From Bacteroidales bacterium (GTDB lineage Bacteria > Bacteroidota > Bacteroidia > Bacteroidales > UBA932): DNA of 42,366 bases. Positions 3,330 through 41,719 of this stretch are shown piece by piece (the stretch's first letter is position 1; each line of letters begins with the position of its first letter). Both the position numbers and the translations under genes were made by a program. The stretch is taken from positions 1 through 42,366 of the forward strand of contig JAEEUZ010000003.1 in the NCBI GenBank assembly GCA_016290725.1, in the 5' to 3' direction. Under the pieces are notes generated by a model that worked only from the letters and a program-made list of their open reading frames with translations, was not told the DNA's origin and ran no database searches.

Positions 3330-3965
3330 ATGAGGAAGAAGTATCCTAAAACCACCACTCGTGTGGAACTTGGCGAGGACGGGAAGTACCGCTGGACTTA
3401 TGCGCTGAATATGTATAAGAACCCGGCCATACTGCTTACGGTTCTGAAGATTATCGTCATATTGTTCAGTATTCCGCTCATTTTCGTTCTTGTGCGCACT
3501 GCTATCAGCAATGACTGGGCGAATGCCTGGGGGGAGAAGATGTGGGACAGCAGCATTAAGATACTGCTTTTTGTGCTGGTGCTGTTCATCGGCATAACCC
3601 TGCTGGCATATCTGATTGTGGCGGGGATGTATGGGGGAAAGTACATCGTCCATTTCACCATGGACGAGAAAACCCTCGTGCACGCCACCGACGGGGCGCA
3701 ATCCAAGAAGGCCCGCAGGATGGGCCTGGTTACGATAGGAGCCGGGGTGCTGTCCGGTCGCGCCGGTACCATCAGTGCCGGTATGGCGGCAACCCGTACC
3801 ACGTCCACAACGGACCTGTCCAGTGTGCGCCGCATCAAGGTTCGTCGCGGAATCAACCTCATCAAACTGAACGAAACCCTGAACCACAATCAGGTGTATG
3901 TTCCGGCAGAGGACTTTGACCTGGTACTTGACTTTTTACGCAAACACTGCCCCAAGGCAAAATGA
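3330..3965 (+). CDS. Hypothetical membrane protein
   Basis: 211 aa ORF with two strong hydrophobic segments. Confidence 0.75.
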   Translation: MRKKYPKTTTRVELGEDGKYRWTYALNMYKNPAILLTVLKIIVILFSIPLIFVLVRTAISNDWANAWGEKMWDSSIKILLFVLVLFIGITLLAYLIVAGMYGGKYIVHFTMDEKTLVHATDGAQSKKARRMGLVTIGAGVLSGRAGTISAGMAATRTTSTTDLSSVRRIKVRRGINLIKLNETLNHNQVYVPAEDFDLVLDFLRKHCPKAK

Positions 3966-3968
3966 GAG

Positions 3969-4075
3969 CGTGAAATGTAACTCTCTGATTATCAGACAAT
4001 AACGCAATTTAAGGTGGGAAAATTTCCCACCTTAAATCATATAACTCGTTATCCATCAACGATTTACATTTCACG
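3969..4075. repeat. Nested inverted-repeat element, copy E1
   Basis: Outer arms CGTGAAATGTAA (3969-3980) / TTACATTTCACG (4064-4075); mid arms ATAACG (3999-4004) / CGTTAT (4047-4052); inner 15-bp arms 4007-4021 / 4023-4037. Confidence 0.85.
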
Positions 4076-4083
4076 GCTTGTGT

Positions 4084-4120
4084 GAGATTTCTCCACGCGC
4101 TTCGCTTGGTCGAAATGACA
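4084..4120 (+). repeat. Dispersed repeat copy R1 (GAGATTTCTC...TCGAAATGACA family)
   Basis: GAGATTTCTCCACGCGCTTCGCTTGGTCGAAATGACA; related to copies near 4642, 6389-6488 and 16060. Confidence 0.75.
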
Positions 4121-4142
4121 AAGGCGAACCGGAACAGGTTAA

Positions 4143-4229: not shown

Positions 4230-4643
4230 ATGGATAAAATCGCTATTGCAAAGGCCATTGAAGGCACATTGGAGGAGAGGCGCTGCTTCCTGGTGGAAGT
4301 GAGCCTTAACGCGTACAACGACATCGAGATCGTTATCGAGAAGGCCGATGGAGCCGTGGACTGGGACGACTGCGCGGCAATCGACCATAAAGTGCACGAG
4401 TGCTTCAATCAGGACGAAGAGGACTACTCCCTCACCGTATCGTCGGCCGGGCTGGACAGGCCTTTCAAGGTGCTGCCCCAGTACCTCAAGGCCTTGGGAA
4501 CCATGGTGGAAGTGAAGCTCAAGGACGGAAAGAAATTCATCGGCAAGCTGGAAGGAGCAAGTGAGAACGAGATCACCGTTAACGAGGAACAGTACCCCAT
4601 GGCGGAAGTGCACAGCGTGAAACCCCACATTGATTTTAAATAG
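4230..4643 (+). CDS. rimP: Ribosome maturation factor RimP
   Basis: 137 aa; DWDDCAAIDHKVHECF...VSSAGLDRPFK; directly upstream of nusA. Confidence 0.9.
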   Translation: MDKIAIAKAIEGTLEERRCFLVEVSLNAYNDIEIVIEKADGAVDWDDCAAIDHKVHECFNQDEEDYSLTVSSAGLDRPFKVLPQYLKALGTMVEVKLKDGKKFIGKLEGASENEITVNEEQYPMAEVHSVKPHIDFK

Positions 4644-4671
4644 ATTTCTCGACTACGCTCGAAATGACAAA
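4642..4671 (+). repeat. Dispersed repeat copy R2, overlapping the end of the rimP stop codon
   Basis: AGATTTCTCGACTACGCTCGAAATGACAAA; near-identical to the 16061 copy. Confidence 0.75.
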
Positions 4672-4689
4672 AGAATAAAACAATATACA

Positions 4690-5958
4690 ATGGCAAAAGA
4701 AAAAGAAAAGGAAATCACCTTGATTGACGCATTCAAGGATTTCAAGGAAGAGAAAAGCATCGACCGTCCGGTGATGCTCGGTGTTCTGAAGGACGTGTTC
4801 CTCACCCAGCTCGCAAAGACCTACGGCAGTTCCGACAACTTCGACGTTATCATCAACGTGGACAAGGGAGACTGCGAAATCTACCAGAACTTCGAGGTTG
4901 TGGAAGAGGTTGAGAATCCTGCAACGGAGATTACCGTGGATGAAATCGCCGCTGAAACCGGCGACGACGACTACGAGATCGGCGACACCTACACCCGTAA
5001 ACTCTCCCTCGCATCCTTCGGCCGCCGCGGCATCCTGAACATCCGTCAGAACCTGCAGGGCCGCATCATGGATATCGAGAAGGCAAACGTGTACAAGCGT
5101 TATTCCGAGAGAGTGGGCGAAATCTTCACGGGCGAGGTTTACCAGACCTGGAAGAACGAGGTGCTCATCCTGGACGAGGAAGGCAACGAACTCCGTATGC
5201 CCCGCCCCGAGCAGATTCCCGGCGAGCGCTTCAAGAAGGGCGACAACATCCGCGCTATCATCAAGAGCGTGGAGATGCGCAACAACACCACTCCGTACAT
5301 CACCCTTTCCCGCACCAGCAACGAGTTCCTGGAGAAACTCTTCGAGATGGAAGTGCCCGAAATCTACGACGGCCTCATCACCATCAAGAAGGTTGTGCGT
5401 ATCCCCGGTGAGCGCGCGAAGGTGGCCGTTGAGTCCTATGACGACCGCATCGACCCCATCGGCGCCTGCATCGGCGTAAAGGGTTCCCGCATCATGGGTA
5501 TCGTCCGCGAGCTCCGCAACGAGAACATCGACGTGCTGCAGTGGACCACCAACACCCAGCTCCTCATCCAGAGGGCGCTGAACCCGGCTCACATCTCCAA
5601 TATCGACCTTGGACAGAGCCCTGAAGACAAGATCAAGGTCTACATGCACTCCGACGAGGTGAAGAAAGGTATCGGCAAGGGCGGCGTTAACATCAAGCTC
5701 GCCGGCATGCTGGTGGGCCGCGAAATCGAGGTCTGGAGAGAAAGCGGAAAGGACGAGGAAATGGAGGAGGAAGACGTGCTCCTGAAGGATTTCGAGAACG
5801 AAATCGACCCTTGGATCATCGAAAGGCTGCAGGCTATCGGCTGCGACACCGCAAAGAGCGTTCTTGCCCTGAGTGCCGACGATATCGCCAATCGCGCAGA
5901 TCTGGAAGACGAGACCGTGGAAGAGGTTCTCTCGATCCTGCGTGCAGAATTTGAATAA
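4690..5958 (+). CDS. nusA: Transcription termination/antitermination factor NusA
   Basis: Start at MAKEKEKEITLIDAFKDF (ORF extends to 4630 through the repeat); S1/KH segments (DPIGACIGVKGSRIMGIVRELRNENIDV). Confidence 0.95.
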   Translation: MAKEKEKEITLIDAFKDFKEEKSIDRPVMLGVLKDVFLTQLAKTYGSSDNFDVIINVDKGDCEIYQNFEVVEEVENPATEITVDEIAAETGDDDYEIGDTYTRKLSLASFGRRGILNIRQNLQGRIMDIEKANVYKRYSERVGEIFTGEVYQTWKNEVLILDEEGNELRMPRPEQIPGERFKKGDNIRAIIKSVEMRNNTTPYITLSRTSNEFLEKLFEMEVPEIYDGLITIKKVVRIPGERAKVAVESYDDRIDPIGACIGVKGSRIMGIVRELRNENIDVLQWTTNTQLLIQRALNPAHISNIDLGQSPEDKIKVYMHSDEVKKGIGKGGVNIKLAGMLVGREIEVWRESGKDEEMEEEDVLLKDFENEIDPWIIERLQAIGCDTAKSVLALSADDIANRADLEDETVEEVLSILRAEFE

Positions 5959-5980: not shown

Positions 5981-8791
5981 ATGGCAGAAATCAGATTATC
6001 GAAACTTATAAAGCAGTTCAATATCGGACTGGACACTCTTGTCGATTTCCTCAACTCGAAGGGAGCCGGCATCGACTCGCCCAATCCCAACCTGAAGATT
6101 TCGGACGAGTACCTGGACGTGCTGCACAAGCAGTTCGGAAAGGATCTGGAGCTGAAGGAGCAGGCAGAGAAGGTGGACGTGAAGCTCACCGAAATCCTGG
6201 ACAAGGCATCCAGCCGCAAGGATGAGGCCGATGACGACTACGAGCCCGAGAAGGTGACGGTTATCAAGAGCAACAACTTCACCCACGAGGCCCGCAAGAA
6301 GAAGGCGGAGCCTGCGCCGGTGGAGGAAGAGCCCGCACCTGTGGAACCGGAGCCCGTGATTGAACCGGAACCGGTTGCCAAGGAAGAGGAGATCTCTCCG
6401 CGCGCTACGCTTGGTCGAGATGACAAGAATGGCGCTACGCTTGGTCGAGATGACAATTCTGTCATTCCGAGCGAAGTCGAGGAATCTCCTGTGGAAGAGC
6501 CTGAAGTCGTGGAAGAAGTGCCTGAAGAGGTGGCTGAAGAGCCGGAAATTTCCGCAGAAACCCCGGCGGAACCGGAAGAAGAAGCCCCTCAGGAGGAAGA
6601 GGAAGAAGAGGCTCCCGCCCCTGAGAAACCCGCAGCTCCGGAACTTAAGGTTCTTGGCAAAATCGACCTTTCCCAGTTCGATCCCAAGAAATCCAAGACC
6701 AAGCGCGAGCGTATCAAGAGCGGTTCTCAGAAGGTGGACGTGAATAAGATCCAGGCCGACAAGCAGCAGCCCCGCAAGAAGGAAGAACTCAAGGGCCAAG
6801 GCAAGAAGGCCGATGCCGGAAAGGGCCGCAAGAAGGGCCAGGACCGCTTCAAACCCGCAATGACGGAGGCCGAGCAGGAAGAACTGCAGAAGGAAATCCA
6901 GAAGCAGGTGAAGGAAACCTATGCGAAGATGAACGAGAGCACCCGCAACACCTTCGGCGCAAAGCACCGCAAGGACAAGAGGGAGCTCGCGGCACTCCGC
7001 AGCCAGGAAGAGATGGAAGCGGCTGCAGCGGAGAACAAGGTGCTGAAAGTCACCGAGTTCGTTACCGTGAACGACCTCGCCACCCTCATGAACAACACCC
7101 CCGTTGTGAAGGTTATCGGCGCATGCATGTCGCTTGGTATGATGGTGTCCATCAACCAGAGGCTAGATGCAGAAACGCTGGTTCTGGTTGCAGAGGAATT
7201 CGGCTACAAGGTGGAATTCGTCACTGCCGAGCTCAGCGAGGAAATCGCCCAGCAGGAGCCGGACAAGGAGGAAGATCTCGTGGAGCGTCCTCCGGTGATT
7301 ACCGTCATGGGTCACGTAGACCACGGTAAAACTTCCCTCCTGGATAATATCCGCAACACCAACGTCATCGCCGGTGAGGCCGGCGGCATTACCCAGCACA
7401 TCGGCGCATACAGCGTGAAGCTGGACAGCGGCCGCCGCATCACCTTCCTGGACACCCCTGGTCATGAGGCCTTCACGGCCATGCGTGCCCGAGGCGCCCA
7501 GATGACGGACCTTGCGATTATCATCGTTGCGGCCGACGACGCCGTGATGCCCCAGACCAAGGAAGCAATCGCCCACGCACAGGCTGCGGGTGTTCCTATG
7601 GTGTTCGCAATCAACAAGATAGATAAGCCCGGCGCAAATCCAGATACTATCCGCCGTCAGCTCTCCGAGATGAACATCCTGGTGGAAGACTGGGGCGGTA
7701 AGTACCAGTGCCAGGAGATATCGGCAAAGAAGGGAATCAACGTGGACAAACTCCTTGAGAAAGTTCTCTTCGAGACCGACCTTCTTGAGCTCAAGGCCAA
7801 TCCAAACAAGCTGGGAAGCGGCGCGGTTATCGAATCTTCGCTGGACAAGGGCCGCGGCTACCTGGCCACCATTCTGGTCCAGGACGGCACCGTGAAGGTT
7901 GGCGACGTTATCATTTCCGGAAGCTACTATGGACGCGTAAAGGCTATGTTCAACGAGCGCGGCCAGAAAGTGGACGAGGCCGGTCCTTCAACCCCCGTTT
8001 CACTTCTTGGCCTCAACGGCGCTCCTGCCGCGGGTGAAAAGTTCAATGTTATGGCCGATGAAAAAGAGGCCAAGAGCATTGCCAACCGCCGCGAGCAGCT
8101 CATCCGCATCCAGGGCATCAAGACGCAGAAGCACCTTACACTGGAAGAGATCGGACGCCGCATAGCCATCGGCAACTTCAAGGAACTGAACGTGATTGTG
8201 AAGGGCGATGTGGACGGCTCCGTGGAAGCCCTGTCGGATTCTCTCATCAAGCTTTCCACCGAGGAAGTGAGGGTGAACGTGATCCACAAGGCCGTGGGTG
8301 CCATCTCAGAGAGCGATGTCCTTCTGGCAGAAGCCTCCGACGCCGTTATCATCGGCTTCCAGGTGCGTCCTTCCTCCGAGGCCCGCAAGGCTGCGGAGAA
8401 GGAGGGTATCGAAATCCGCCTCTACTCGGTTATCTACGACTGTATCAACGAGGTGAAGGAAGGTATCGAGGGTATGCTGGAGCCGGAGAAGAAGGAAGAG
8501 GTAACCGCTACTGCAGAGGTGAAGCAGACCTTCAAGATCTCCAAGGTGGGCACCGTTGCAGGCTGCCAGGTGAAGGAAGGAAAGCTCACCCAGAAGGCAC
8601 AGGTTCGCCTTATCCGCGACGGTATCGTGGTGTACACCGGCGCTCTTGCATCCCTGCAGAGAGGCAAGGACGACGCCAAGGAGGTTGCATCGGGATTCGA
8701 GTGCGGCTGCTCGCTGGAGCGCTTCAACGACATCCACATCGGCGATGTTATCGAAGCCTTCCAGGTGGTTGAAATCAAGCGTACCTTATAG
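5981..8791 (+). CDS. infB: Translation initiation factor IF-2
   Basis: 936 aa; [43 protein letters not shown]. Confidence 0.97.
6389..6488 (+). repeat. Composite dispersed repeat R3 inserted in frame in infB (two direct copies, one inverted)
   Basis: GAGATCTCTCCGCGCGCTACGCTTGGTCGAGATGACAAGAATG / GCGCTACGCTTGGTCGAGATGACAATTCT / GTCATTCCGAGCGAAGTCGAGGAATCTC (inverted). Confidence 0.85.
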
Positions 8792-13640: not shown

Positions 13641-13748
13641 CGTAAAGTGCAACTTGGTGACTTTCAGAGGTTTACCGATTTTGCCTGGGGCGTTTTTGCT
13701 CCAGGCACTTTGTATATTCCGCAGATTATCAGCGCATTACACTTTACG
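13641..13748. repeat. Nested inverted-repeat element, copy E2
   Basis: Arms CGTAAAGTGCAA / TTACACTTTACG; inner hairpin GCCTGGGGC-gttttt-GCTCCAGGC (13683-13706); the reverse complement aligns with E1. Confidence 0.85.
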
Positions 13749-16034: not shown

Positions 16035-16156
16035 GCAATAAAGACCATGGATAGTAGAAAGATTTCTCGACTACGCTCGAAATGACATAAGAGGAAAACC
16101 CGAAATGTCAACAGGGGTGGGGACGCAGAAAAAGAGTTAGGCCCGTAGCAATAAAG
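16011..16156 (+). repeat. 33-nt direct repeats (16011-16043 and 16124-16156)
   Basis: CGCAGAAAAAGAGTTACTCCCTTCGCAATAAAG vs CGCAGAAAAAGAGTTAGGCCCGTAGCAATAAAG, 29/33 identical. Confidence 0.8.
16060..16087 (+). repeat. Dispersed repeat copy R4
   Basis: AGATTTCTCGACTACGCTCGAAATGACA, same as R2 over 28 nt. Confidence 0.75.
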
Positions 16157-38466: not shown

Positions 38467-40506
38467 TTATTTTCTTTTCAGCAGTTTTTCGGTTTCCCTT
38501 CTGGTGAGGGGCTCTCCCCCGTTGAATGGATACACGGCGGTTGTTCCGGAGGTGGTAACTATCCAGTAGCGCTTGCCTTCATGCTCATAGAGTTCCGGCA
38601 GGGCGCGGATCTTTTCTTCAGGGGCGATGCCCTTCCAATCTTTAGGTTTCTGGCCATGCAGGTTGTACATCTGCAGGGTGTTGTTCTTATGCAGAACCAT
38701 AACGGTGTAGCCGCCTGCGCCGGTGAAGTCATAGGCGGCGGGGCCAAGGCGCACATCGCGGCCAAGGTCCACGGGGAAGCCCTGTACGAACCGGCCTTTC
38801 ACATCCAGAAGGTATAGCGACGAGCCGGCGGCGAACAGGAATTGCTTGCGGCCGTTATTGTAGTAGTCGATGCATTCCACCCTGCCACAGATCTTCTCCT
38901 TGAAGGGAATTCCCCAAACGCCCTTGCCTTTTTCGTCGTTAAGGCAAATTGCCAGATTCTTGTTCTGGTACAGGCTGTTGGTTTTGCCGGTTGTGAAGTT
39001 TTCCACGTCATAGGGGCCGGTGGGAACAACCACGGTGGTATCCTTGAGGAAACTGCCGCCCCTATTGGCCTGGGCCTCCATGCGGCGGCTTAGCGTTATG
39101 CAGAGTTCCGGCTTCGTGCCGGGTTTGAGTGATGCGAAAAGCGGGGCATACGAGGCGCCTGTGGTGTAAAGGAGCACGGCCTTTGAAGGGATCTCTTGCA
39201 GATATCGTGAGACCAGTTCCGGCGCATCTCCCAGCGAAGCGTATGCCAGCATGCCGGCGGGAACCTGCAATCCAGCCTCTCCCAGACGGTCTTTGAGCGT
39301 ATAGGTGAGGAATTCCGGATCCGTGAACATATCCAAAGCCTCTTTGCAGCCATAGGCGCGCCAGCCGCCGCCAAGGTGCAGGCACAGAGAGTCATCGGTC
39401 TTGAATTCCGTTCCCAGAACACGTGCGGGATAGCCGGCGTATTTGTTTGCCTCTATGGTGCCTTTCTTTCCGCCATCCTGGGCGCAGCGAAGCATGAGCA
39501 CCTTGAAAACGGTGCTACCGCTGCGGAAACCGGCAAGTGCGATTTCCTTCAGATTGAGGGAATTGTACCACTTGAGGGGGTTAATGTCGTGGCCCTTGCC
39601 GTTTTCAATGTCGGCATCATATGCGCGGAGAGTGCCTTCGCTGTCGCGGAAATCGCGGTAGCGGGAAAGGTAGTCTTCCGCATCGGCCACGGGAATAGCC
39701 AGGACCGAAGCCACCGAGCCGGGAAGTATACTCGCAAAGGTGGTGGTTCCACCCTGATATCCGGAGAAGGCGGTGAGATATCCGGCAGTGCGAGGAAGCA
39801 CGGTTGCCGTGCCTTTGAGGGCTATCTGCTCCGGGCCGGATTCCATGCGGAAGGCGGTCCAATCGGCAAAACGGCGTACGAACCCGCTCTTGGGGGCCAC
39901 CGCCGCTCCGCCGTATGTCTGCATGAGTTTCGATGCCTGGGAGTTATTCAGGAACACCAGCGCGGGGCCCGATATGGACGCGCATGCCTCCTTCATTCCG
40001 GGGGCCGACAAAACGCTGAGCCCGCTCTCCAGATGCCTAACAGACGCAGCCAGAAGGGTTTCTGAACGGGAAGCCAGCACAAGGCCTTCCGTGAACTCGA
40101 GTTTGAAGGATGCGTTCCTGGCAAGGGCCTCCAATTGCGAGCGGCTCAGGGAATCCTGCTTTGCCTCTTCCGCAATAATGAGCGGCACCAGCGCACCGCT
40201 GTTGTGCAGGGAAATAACGGTCTTACGGCCGCCCACAGCAGAGAGATACTCCATGAAAGGACCTTTCTGCAGGAACGAGGTGAGAACCCCGCAAGAATCC
40301 GCAATCACGTTGCGCGCTTCCCTTGAACCGTCGAACACGAACACGGCAGCCGCATCCGAAGGCACAGCCTTTAGAAGCGAATAGTCGCTCTTTACGGGAA
40401 TCTCCGCCCCCTGTGGCTTGCTGTACAGCCTGTACACGGCCCACGCTATGCCCGCAAGCATAAGCGCAATGGCCACTACTGCCACTATGACGGATTTCTT
40501 GTTCAT
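38467..40506 (-). CDS. Hypothetical membrane-anchored extracytoplasmic protein (DUF3352-like, beta-propeller-like C-terminus)
   Basis: 679 aa; N-terminal TM; YSLLKAVPSDAAAVFVFDGS. Confidence 0.65.
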   Translation of the reverse strand: MNKKSVIVAVVAIALMLAGIAWAVYRLYSKPQGAEIPVKSDYSLLKAVPSDAAAVFVFDGSREARNVIADSCGVLTSFLQKGPFMEYLSAVGGRKTVISLHNSGALVPLIIAEEAKQDSLSRSQLEALARNASFKLEFTEGLVLASRSETLLAASVRHLESGLSVLSAPGMKEACASISGPALVFLNNSQASKLMQTYGGAAVAPKSGFVRRFADWTAFRMESGPEQIALKGTATVLPRTAGYLTAFSGYQGGTTTFASILPGSVASVLAIPVADAEDYLSRYRDFRDSEGTLRAYDADIENGKGHDINPLKWYNSLNLKEIALAGFRSGSTVFKVLMLRCAQDGGKKGTIEANKYAGYPARVLGTEFKTDDSLCLHLGGGWRAYGCKEALDMFTDPEFLTYTLKDRLGEAGLQVPAGMLAYASLGDAPELVSRYLQEIPSKAVLLYTTGASYAPLFASLKPGTKPELCITLSRRMEAQANRGGSFLKDTTVVVPTGPYDVENFTTGKTNSLYQNKNLAICLNDEKGKGVWGIPFKEKICGRVECIDYYNNGRKQFLFAAGSSLYLLDVKGRFVQGFPVDLGRDVRLGPAAYDFTGAGGYTVMVLHKNNTLQMYNLHGQKPKDWKGIAPEEKIRALPELYEHEGKRYWIVTTSGTTAVYPFNGGEPLTRRETEKLLKRK

Positions 40507-40539
40507 TGCAGGTTCAGGTTCGCTGTTCTATACAACTTA

Positions 40540-40570
40540 CAAATATAGTGATTATCTCCGAATAATGAAA
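40540..40570 (-). promoter_or_regulatory. Near-consensus promoter for the 38467-40506 gene
   Basis: Minus strand TTTC - 19 nt - TATATTTG. Confidence 0.5.
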
Positions 40571-40601
40571 CACGGCCTTGCAGCCCGGCGGCCCCCTCCT
40601 G

Positions 40602-40839
40602 CCGGATATCCAGCAAATCGGCCTTCCAGTGGGCTCTGTGTGGATATCCGGTTGCGATTTTGGCAGTGGGTGCCGTTTCCCCTGCGCCTGGGCGGCGTTT
40701 CCCCTGCCGGATATCCAACAAATCGGCCTCCCAGTGCGGTCTGCGCGGATATCCGGTAGCGTTTTTGGCAGTGGGCGCCGTTTCCACTGCCGGATATCCA
40801 ACAAATCGGCCTCCCAGTGCGGTCTGCGTGGATATCCGG
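40602..40839. repeat. Three tandem 50-bp units bounded by CCGGATATCC / GGATATCCGG
   Basis: Units 40602-40651, 40707-40756 and 40790-40839; spacers 55 and 33 nt, homologous to each other. Confidence 0.9.
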
Positions 40840-40854
40840 CAGAGCCAAAAAAGA

Positions 40855-40886
40855 TTTGGATATTCGTGCAAACGTTTGTAAATTTG
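40855..40886 (+). promoter_or_regulatory. Bacteroidetes-type promoter for kduD-kduI
   Basis: TTTG (40855-40858) - 20 nt - TAAATTTG (40879-40886). Confidence 0.75.
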
Positions 40887-40915
40887 TACTTGGACAAAAC
40901 TTAAACTTCTATAAT

Positions 40916-41719
40916 ATGGCAAATCTATTCTCGCTGGAAGGCAAAAACGCATGGATTACCGGAGCGTCTTACGGTATCGGCTTCAACATTGCCAAGGCAT
41001 TCGTTGCCGCGGGCATCAAGAACATCATTTTCAACGACATCAATGAGGCAGCGCTTCAGAGAGGTCTGGATAATTACAAGGAAGCCGGAATCACTAACGT
41101 GCACGGCTATGTGTGCGATGTAACAAATGAAGTCGCCGTAAAGGAACTGGTGCAGAAGATCCACGCGGAAGTTGGCCAGATTGACATTTTGGTGAACAAC
41201 GCCGGCATCATCAAGCGCATCCCCATGCACGAGATGGAGCGCAAGGAGTTCCAGCAGGTGATCGACGTGGACCTGGTGGCACCGTTCATCGTGTCATCGG
41301 CCGTGCTTCCGGAGATGATGGAGCGCCGCGAGGGCAAGATCATCAATATCTGCTCGATGATGAGCGAGCTCGGGCGCGAGACCGTATCGGCCTATGCCGC
41401 GGCAAAGGGCGGCCTGAAGATGCTCACCCGCAACATCTGCTCGGAGTACGGCGAGTACAATATCCAGTGCAACGGAATCGGCCCCGGCTATATCGCAACG
41501 CCCCAGACCGCTCCACTACGCGAAAAGCAGCCGGACGGCTCCCGTCATCCCTTCGACAGCTTCATCTGCGCAAAGACTCCAGCCGGCCGCTGGCTTGAAC
41601 CCGAAGAGCTCGGTGGCCCCGCAGTGTTCCTGGCTTCCCACGCATCGGACGCCGTGAACGGACATATCCTCTATGTCGATGGCGGTATCCTCGCCTATAT
41701 CGGAAAACAACCCAAATAA
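40916..41719 (+). CDS. kduD: SDR-family oxidoreductase (gluconate 5-dehydrogenase / 2-deoxy-D-gluconate 3-dehydrogenase, KduD-like)
   Basis: Start MANLFSLEGKNAWITGASYGIGFNIAKAF; SxxYAAAKGG; adjacent to kduI. Confidence 0.85.
   Translation: MANLFSLEGKNAWITGASYGIGFNIAKAFVAAGIKNIIFNDINEAALQRGLDNYKEAGITNVHGYVCDVTNEVAVKELVQKIHAEVGQIDILVNNAGIIKRIPMHEMERKEFQQVIDVDLVAPFIVSSAVLPEMMERREGKIINICSMMSELGRETVSAYAAAKGGLKMLTRNICSEYGEYNIQCNGIGPGYIATPQTAPLREKQPDGSRHPFDSFICAKTPAGRWLEPEELGGPAVFLASHASDAVNGHILYVDGGILAYIGKQPK

Follow-up and report, generated by a model that had tools for sequence, protein, structure and literature searches.

The window, i.e. the whole 42,366-nt stretch of Bacteroidales DNA analysed here, contains a plus-strand host gene (3330–3965) for a 211-aa protein without Pfam match, and a 107-bp element, termed E1 (3969–4075), begins 3 nt past its TGA stop codon (3963–3965). 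Downstream of E1 lies rimP (4230–4643, plus strand); both genes are given as context only. E1, to which as to E2 below no strand is assigned, has the anatomy of a complete REPIN-like element with arms CGTGAAATG and consists of a left outer arm CGTGAAATGTAA (3969–3980), a left dyad box (3977–4003; family consensus GTAACTCGCTGAnnnTCAGCGAnTTAC), a central hairpin designated type A (AAGGTGGG/CCCACCTT, 4007–4037), a right dyad box that repeats the left one in inverted orientation (4041–4067), and a right outer arm TTACATTTCACG (4064–4075). The second copy in the window, E2 (13641–13748, 108 bp), carries arms CGTAAAGTG and a central hairpin of type B (GCCTGGGGC...GCTCCAGGC, 13683–13706), lies immediately 3' of folP (Pterin_bind), and supplies with its right end the stop codon of a converging nucleotidyltransferase gene. 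An earlier note on this DNA had described for E1 outer 12-bp arms, a 6-bp stem and an inner 15-bp hairpin with a 1-nt centre, all of which were found, the 6-bp stem reading ATAACG/CGTTAT. Its claims of homology and of compensatory changes stood as well, as the reverse complement of E2 agrees with the 25 nt at the start of E1 in 19/25 positions, both elements fall into one covariance-model family, and in the outer stem positions 4 and 7 are changed as pairs while position 10 becomes a G-T pair. Folding against dinucleotide shuffles gave z = −8.8 for E1 and z = −4.7 to −5.7 for E2, and these scores, together with the 37 covariance-model copies described below, confirmed that E1 and E2 are real and non-random.

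Several other repeats were noted in the window. A dispersed repeat containing CGCTACGCTTGGTCGAGATGACAA adjoins E1 at 4084–4121 and recurs at 6389–6456, where it lies in frame within the variable N-terminal part of IF-2, resembling protein-coding palindromes. Another dispersed repeat, containing GATTTCTCGACTACGCTCGAAATGACA and belonging to a family other than that of E1, occurs at 4628–4681 and 16046–16099 (85% identity over 54 bp), and three near-tandem 88-nt direct repeats at 40598–40873 (89% and 63% identity to the reference repeat) are located inside a minus-strand ORF listed at 40503–40952.

The earlier note had proposed to look for further copies, for covariation once more copies are aligned, and for matches to Rfam and attC models. 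First further copies were obtained by a DNA search of the own genome, and a covariance model built from 18 copies yielded 37 confident distinct copies in the 2.4-Mb genome with E-values down to 1.7e-17, all of them 107 or 108 bp long. The own genome carries no fewer than 37 copies and, in addition, 7 elements of another subfamily with CTGGCGG arms. Application of the covariance model to 60 relatives and the own genome gave hits in 26 of the 37 genomes from the same genus, counting the own one, whereas the 24 genomes that represent other families of the order had no hit. E1 is thus one member of a genus-wide family, and the view of E1 and E2 as a special pair had to be given up. When 84,980 species genomes were searched with a fixed-length arm pattern, 50 stretches matched, most of these by far located in MAGs titled Bacteroidales, Bacteroidia or Rikenellaceae, several being rumen isolates by title, and one record being titled Bacillota; the same pattern had 0 matches among 2.9 million viral contigs, which ruled out a phage origin of the elements. 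No Rfam covariance model matched anywhere in the window at the gathering score, and at the elements merely sub-threshold miRNA chance hits were obtained. According to crude ORF calls, nearly all 37 own-genome copies lie outside predicted genes, about 24 of them no more than 50 nt away from the 3' end of a gene and several between convergent genes. Like REPINs, the elements are therefore dispersed, multi-copy and extragenic.

Both halves of the element follow one profile in opposite orientation, in which CGTRAAATG leads to the dyad box, then to GCAAAT and finally to the centre, so that three modules can be distinguished: an outer stem (positions 1–10), two conserved dyad boxes and a central hairpin. 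While the sequence of the outer stem differs between subfamilies, its complementarity is kept, and the central hairpin, of which four main types occur in the own genome, varies completely in sequence and yet pairs. Arm-to-arm covariation among the own-genome copies is confined to position 4 and the central hairpin. In a wider set of 38 subfamily representatives from many genomes, covariation was significant against shuffles: positions 1–10, including those of the E1 arms, pair much more often than expected and show as many as four pair types per position, positions 11–35 mostly lack covariation (exceptions are 18, 33, 34 and, weakly, 25), which includes both E1 boxes with their conserved sequence and small covariation, and the central hairpin forms a long perfect stem in most representatives and an interrupted stem in the rest. 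As pairing is seen at positions 1–10 and in the centre and little of it at positions 11–35, a constraint on pairing acts on the outer and central stems, and the boxes resemble sites that are recognised by their sequence. Of the nested stems proposed earlier, the outer arm and the central hairpin thus covary, but the "mid" 6-bp stem is not conserved and most of the stretch in between is without covariation. A cloverleaf fold with hairpins inside the boxes was ruled out by the absence of within-box covariation, although the box consensus is palindromic.

This architecture of inverted REP-like ends around a hairpin-forming spacer with covarying stem, constrained to a total of 107/108 bp, corresponds to that of REPINs. 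A GTAG or GT[AG]G head next to a palindrome was not found, as the ends read CGT..., CTGG... and variants thereof. Immediately beyond the element ends C or G predominates, and no target-site duplication was obvious by eye. Deviating forms were also encountered. In a MAG titled Rikenellaceae (JAAZIW, loci L089–L137), a 107-bp variant keeps the same arms and boxes but shows no obvious central hairpin, and it is flanked by cgag/ctcg, in most cases symmetrically. Locus L142 contains at 5180–5254 (G063:C107:5679–5753) a 75-bp derivative with intact arms and boxes that lacks the central hairpin. Two elements of one genome (L136 2660–2766 and L112 7392–7498) have identical right and different left halves, which suggests a half-element exchange at the central hairpin.

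In one relative, the block between two elements encodes a protein with the Y1/HUH signature MPDHIHMAV. A Pfam Y1_Tnp search of the relatives retrieved 40 loci, which were scanned on structure using complementary arms, spacing, a central hairpin and a loose box score, with no arm or hairpin sequence used. The strict scan gave 19 matches in 23.7 kb beside Y1 genes, 5 in 140.6 kb further off and 0 in 405 kb of shuffled sequence. One full-length subfamily comprises 23 of the 40 Y1 genes (>100 bits; next score 47), and an element flanks 14 of these 23 RAYT genes (13 strict, one relaxed), compared to 0 of the remaining 17 Y1-like genes; the subfamily profile derives mostly from element-linked members, so that the 23/17 split is not wholly independent, yet the score gap is wide. 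Nine of the 23 have no nearby element under the thresholds used. Typically, the 5' copy is located about 90–160 bp upstream of the RAYT gene and the 3' copy overlaps its stop codon. Each RAYT is accompanied by a distinct element, as expected for REPINs with one adjacent cognate RAYT per family, and genome G028 alone holds four RAYTs with four different arm/hairpin types. Arm-sequence and RAYT-sequence similarity show a weak correlation (Mantel r 0.34, p 0.013). Two individual arrangements may be added: in JAAZIW, the 107-bp variant occurs together with a RAYT of the same subfamily (L116 3164–5613; gene at about 4239–5219, minus strand), and at L200 3341–3713 three tandem elements with 134-bp spacing occupy the end of a RAYT gene and the sequence downstream of it.

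The own genome encodes three subfamily RAYTs. The gene on contig C163 has a type-B element, sharing its hairpin type with E2, 87 bp upstream, and the gene on C111 a type-C element about 60–90 bp upstream, depending on the start codon. The element of the third RAYT, on C199, has CTGGCGG arms, from which a third dispersed subfamily was to be expected; when the own genome was searched for this pattern, seven such elements with the same hairpin were indeed recovered, whereas a reversed control pattern returned 0, and an eighth match without hairpin was taken as chance. No RAYT adjacent to a type-A hairpin was found in the own draft genome, and E1 could therefore be an orphan copy. As types A and C have the same arms, the C111 RAYT is the likeliest candidate to serve E1.

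Pfam Y1_Tnp was detected in 16/16 RAYT proteins, whose alignment spans about 310 aa and in which HxH, Tyr, NN and some other residues are invariant. The HUH motif and the single tyrosine of the Y1 fold, which are the predicted catalytic residues, are thus present; the tyrosine motif reads YxxNN[P/S], and in every case in which the motif scan was successful HuH and Tyr are 58 aa apart, the tyrosine of L199 being assigned to Y118 from the alignment. The predicted fold (pLDDT 92) is closest, among PDB entries, to 4er8, the structure of a RAYT in complex with a REP hairpin (E 3.5e-5, TM 0.72 on target), followed by IS200/IS605 transposases, and a C-terminal extension of about 150 residues lies beyond the domain matching 4er8. 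Scores against NCBIfam REP_Tyr_transpos NF047646 (36.6, 31.9 and 31.5 bits) did not reach the curated cut-off of 80 bits, and the RAYTs described here are members of the same superfamily but not of that equivalog.

Presence of the elements differs between genomes. None of 29 relatives has an element beside rimP, which ruled out a conserved rimP regulatory element, and the gene upstream of E1 is not syntenic at rimP of the relatives. Within the close pair G061 and G063, an element separates two convergent genes in G061 while two bases do so in G063, with flanks that are 85–87% identical; 11 and about 5 flanking bases differ as well at the empty G063 site, so that the exact insertion point is not marked. 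For an element on G061:C33, the empty-site search found the flanks to be absent from relatives.

Beyond the family, its modules, the linkage and specificity of its RAYTs and the presence/absence differences observed here, we consider it highly probable that E1 is a REPIN-like non-autonomous mobile element, from a set of families that each have their own cognate RAYT acting on them as a Y1/HUH single-strand endonuclease. Its two inverted REP-like halves, each composed of outer arm and dyad box, enclose the central hairpin within a nearly fixed length, and in a single-stranded DNA stage the outer arms and the central hairpin would pair. The RAYT would then recognise the paired arms and hairpin together with the boxes, cleave at the element ends by means of its tyrosine and join the element copy elsewhere. 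Copies by gene 3' ends, such as E1, may have survived because insertion there is least harmful, and any effect on termination or mRNA would be secondary.

The positional bias could also be read as the sign of a structured RNA or of a bidirectional terminator or mRNA-stabilising element at gene 3' ends under selection for host expression. With about two thirds of the own-genome copies near such ends by the crude ORF caller, some between convergent genes, a strong and covarying central hairpin and a terminator-like match on one strand of E1, this explanation has points in its favour, yet we regard it as very improbable: purifying selection on insertions predicts the same 3'-end bias, E1 is not kept at the orthologous site, arms and hairpin type track the transposase and not the neighbouring gene, and the terminator scan was passed by the minus strand of E1 only, which ruled out an intrinsic bidirectional terminator as the main role. 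Among the roles put forward in the earlier note, the folded recombination or transposition site is best supported; neither a dedicated non-coding RNA nor a conserved 3'-processing element was borne out, given the absence of E1 at rimP of the relatives, subfamilies that follow the transposase and the small pairing constraint in the middle of the structure.

A conservative recombination site of attC- or dif-like type, serving programmed inversion or cassette exchange with mobility as a secondary trait, would fit rearrangements observed in five close species (G061–G064 and CAMYWP), where modules lying between elements are either missing or inverted, in place or as a unit. Modules W and Q, the latter holding a RAYT gene, are inverted in place between G061 and G063, CAMYWP has modules inverted as a unit, and module W is missing in G064. 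The boundaries lie at elements or within about 75 bp of them, and element halves have apparently been exchanged between loci; the loci concerned (L151 5135–14000, L156, L162, L163, L143 and L132) were chosen for having elements and give no measure of breakpoint enrichment. Homologous recombination between the near-identical cores, inverted repeats with about 30 near-identical bp in common, suffices to explain the inversions without a dedicated recombinase. Moreover, no integrase-linked cassette array was seen, and attC sites of integrons were excluded on anatomy, since the boxes lack between-arm covariation and RYYYAAC/GTTRRRY are absent by inspection, which leaves this explanation with a very small probability. 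A bolder proposal holds that elements and RAYT form an active genome-rearranging system, in which the HUH enzyme inverts, deletes or exchanges DNA between element pairs, its own gene included, modules flip between close species, and specificity is encoded modularly by the outer arm together with the central hairpin; we consider this unlikely, albeit conceivable. An ordinary MITE of a DDE insertion sequence with common terminal repeats would share the inverted ends, small size and dispersal, but is hardly credible, as the transposase beside the elements is of Y1/HUH and not DDE type, the one empty site shows no obvious target duplication, and a regular covarying central hairpin is no MITE feature.

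The preferred reading, a mobile element served by a RAYT, can be compared with known systems. REPINs are inverted REP doublets of about 100 bp with fixed spacing, an adjacent cognate RAYT and several families per genome, and their middle is constrained for length and hairpin formation with compensatory changes (Bertels and Rainey 2011, PMC3116915). All of these traits recur here, and by analogy of anatomy, dispersal and cognate transposase the elements probably work like a REPIN-RAYT system (PMC3116915, PMC8266576). In contrast to those REPINs, there is no GTAG-type head, the outer arm is a covarying 10-bp stem, subfamilies differ in arm and hairpin but have conserved boxes in common, the hosts are Bacteroidales and the RAYT has about 310 aa. 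TnpA_REP-like subclass 2.6, or RAYT group 5, of Bacteroidetes has genes flanked by "atypical secondary structures" with further genomic copies and no GT[AG]G (PMC6006769), as observed here, but its median length of 179 aa, its motif YIH[QN]NP and its HuH-to-Tyr distance of 82 aa do not agree with our proteins; in length, tyrosine motif and spacing, the latter differ from every RAYT subclass tabulated by Quentin et al. 2018 (PMC6006769), including 2.6. TIRtrons/TIRYTs (PMC3733652; mostly subclass 2.1 of PMC6006769) likewise carry a RAYT-type gene between inverted repeats unrelated to GTAG REPs, but here each flank is a complete element of about 107 bp with a central hairpin that is also dispersed alone, and the TIR consensus GGGG[AT][CG]A[CG] was not seen in the arms. 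With IS200/IS605 elements (IS608, ISDra2) the system shares the Y1/HUH catalytic fold and structured DNA ends, whereas the dispersed elements here are gene-free and the protein has a long C-terminal extension. ERIC, Correia and similar sequences are imperfect intergenic palindromes of roughly 100–150 bp; the present elements resemble them as imperfect palindromes between genes but differ in that a linked transposase and subfamily-specific covariation point to a likely mobiliser. As the GT[AG]G head is lacking, E1 is most suitably described as a REPIN-like element and assigned to a divergent RAYT subclass: REPIN/RAYT systems are already known, mainly from Proteobacteria, and what is new is this unusual Bacteroidales version.

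Few transposase-derived systems persist for long in bacteria, and REPIN/RAYT pairs are one of them; their role is unsettled and most work has been devoted to Gammaproteobacteria. A single genus with many co-resident RAYT-element pairs, which have fixed boxes but differing arms and hairpins, offers a natural data set on which part of the DNA sets RAYT specificity, and within one element the parts that covary as stems can be separated from those that do not. In addition, the family accounts for one type of intergenic palindrome that has gone unannotated in uncultured Bacteroidales.
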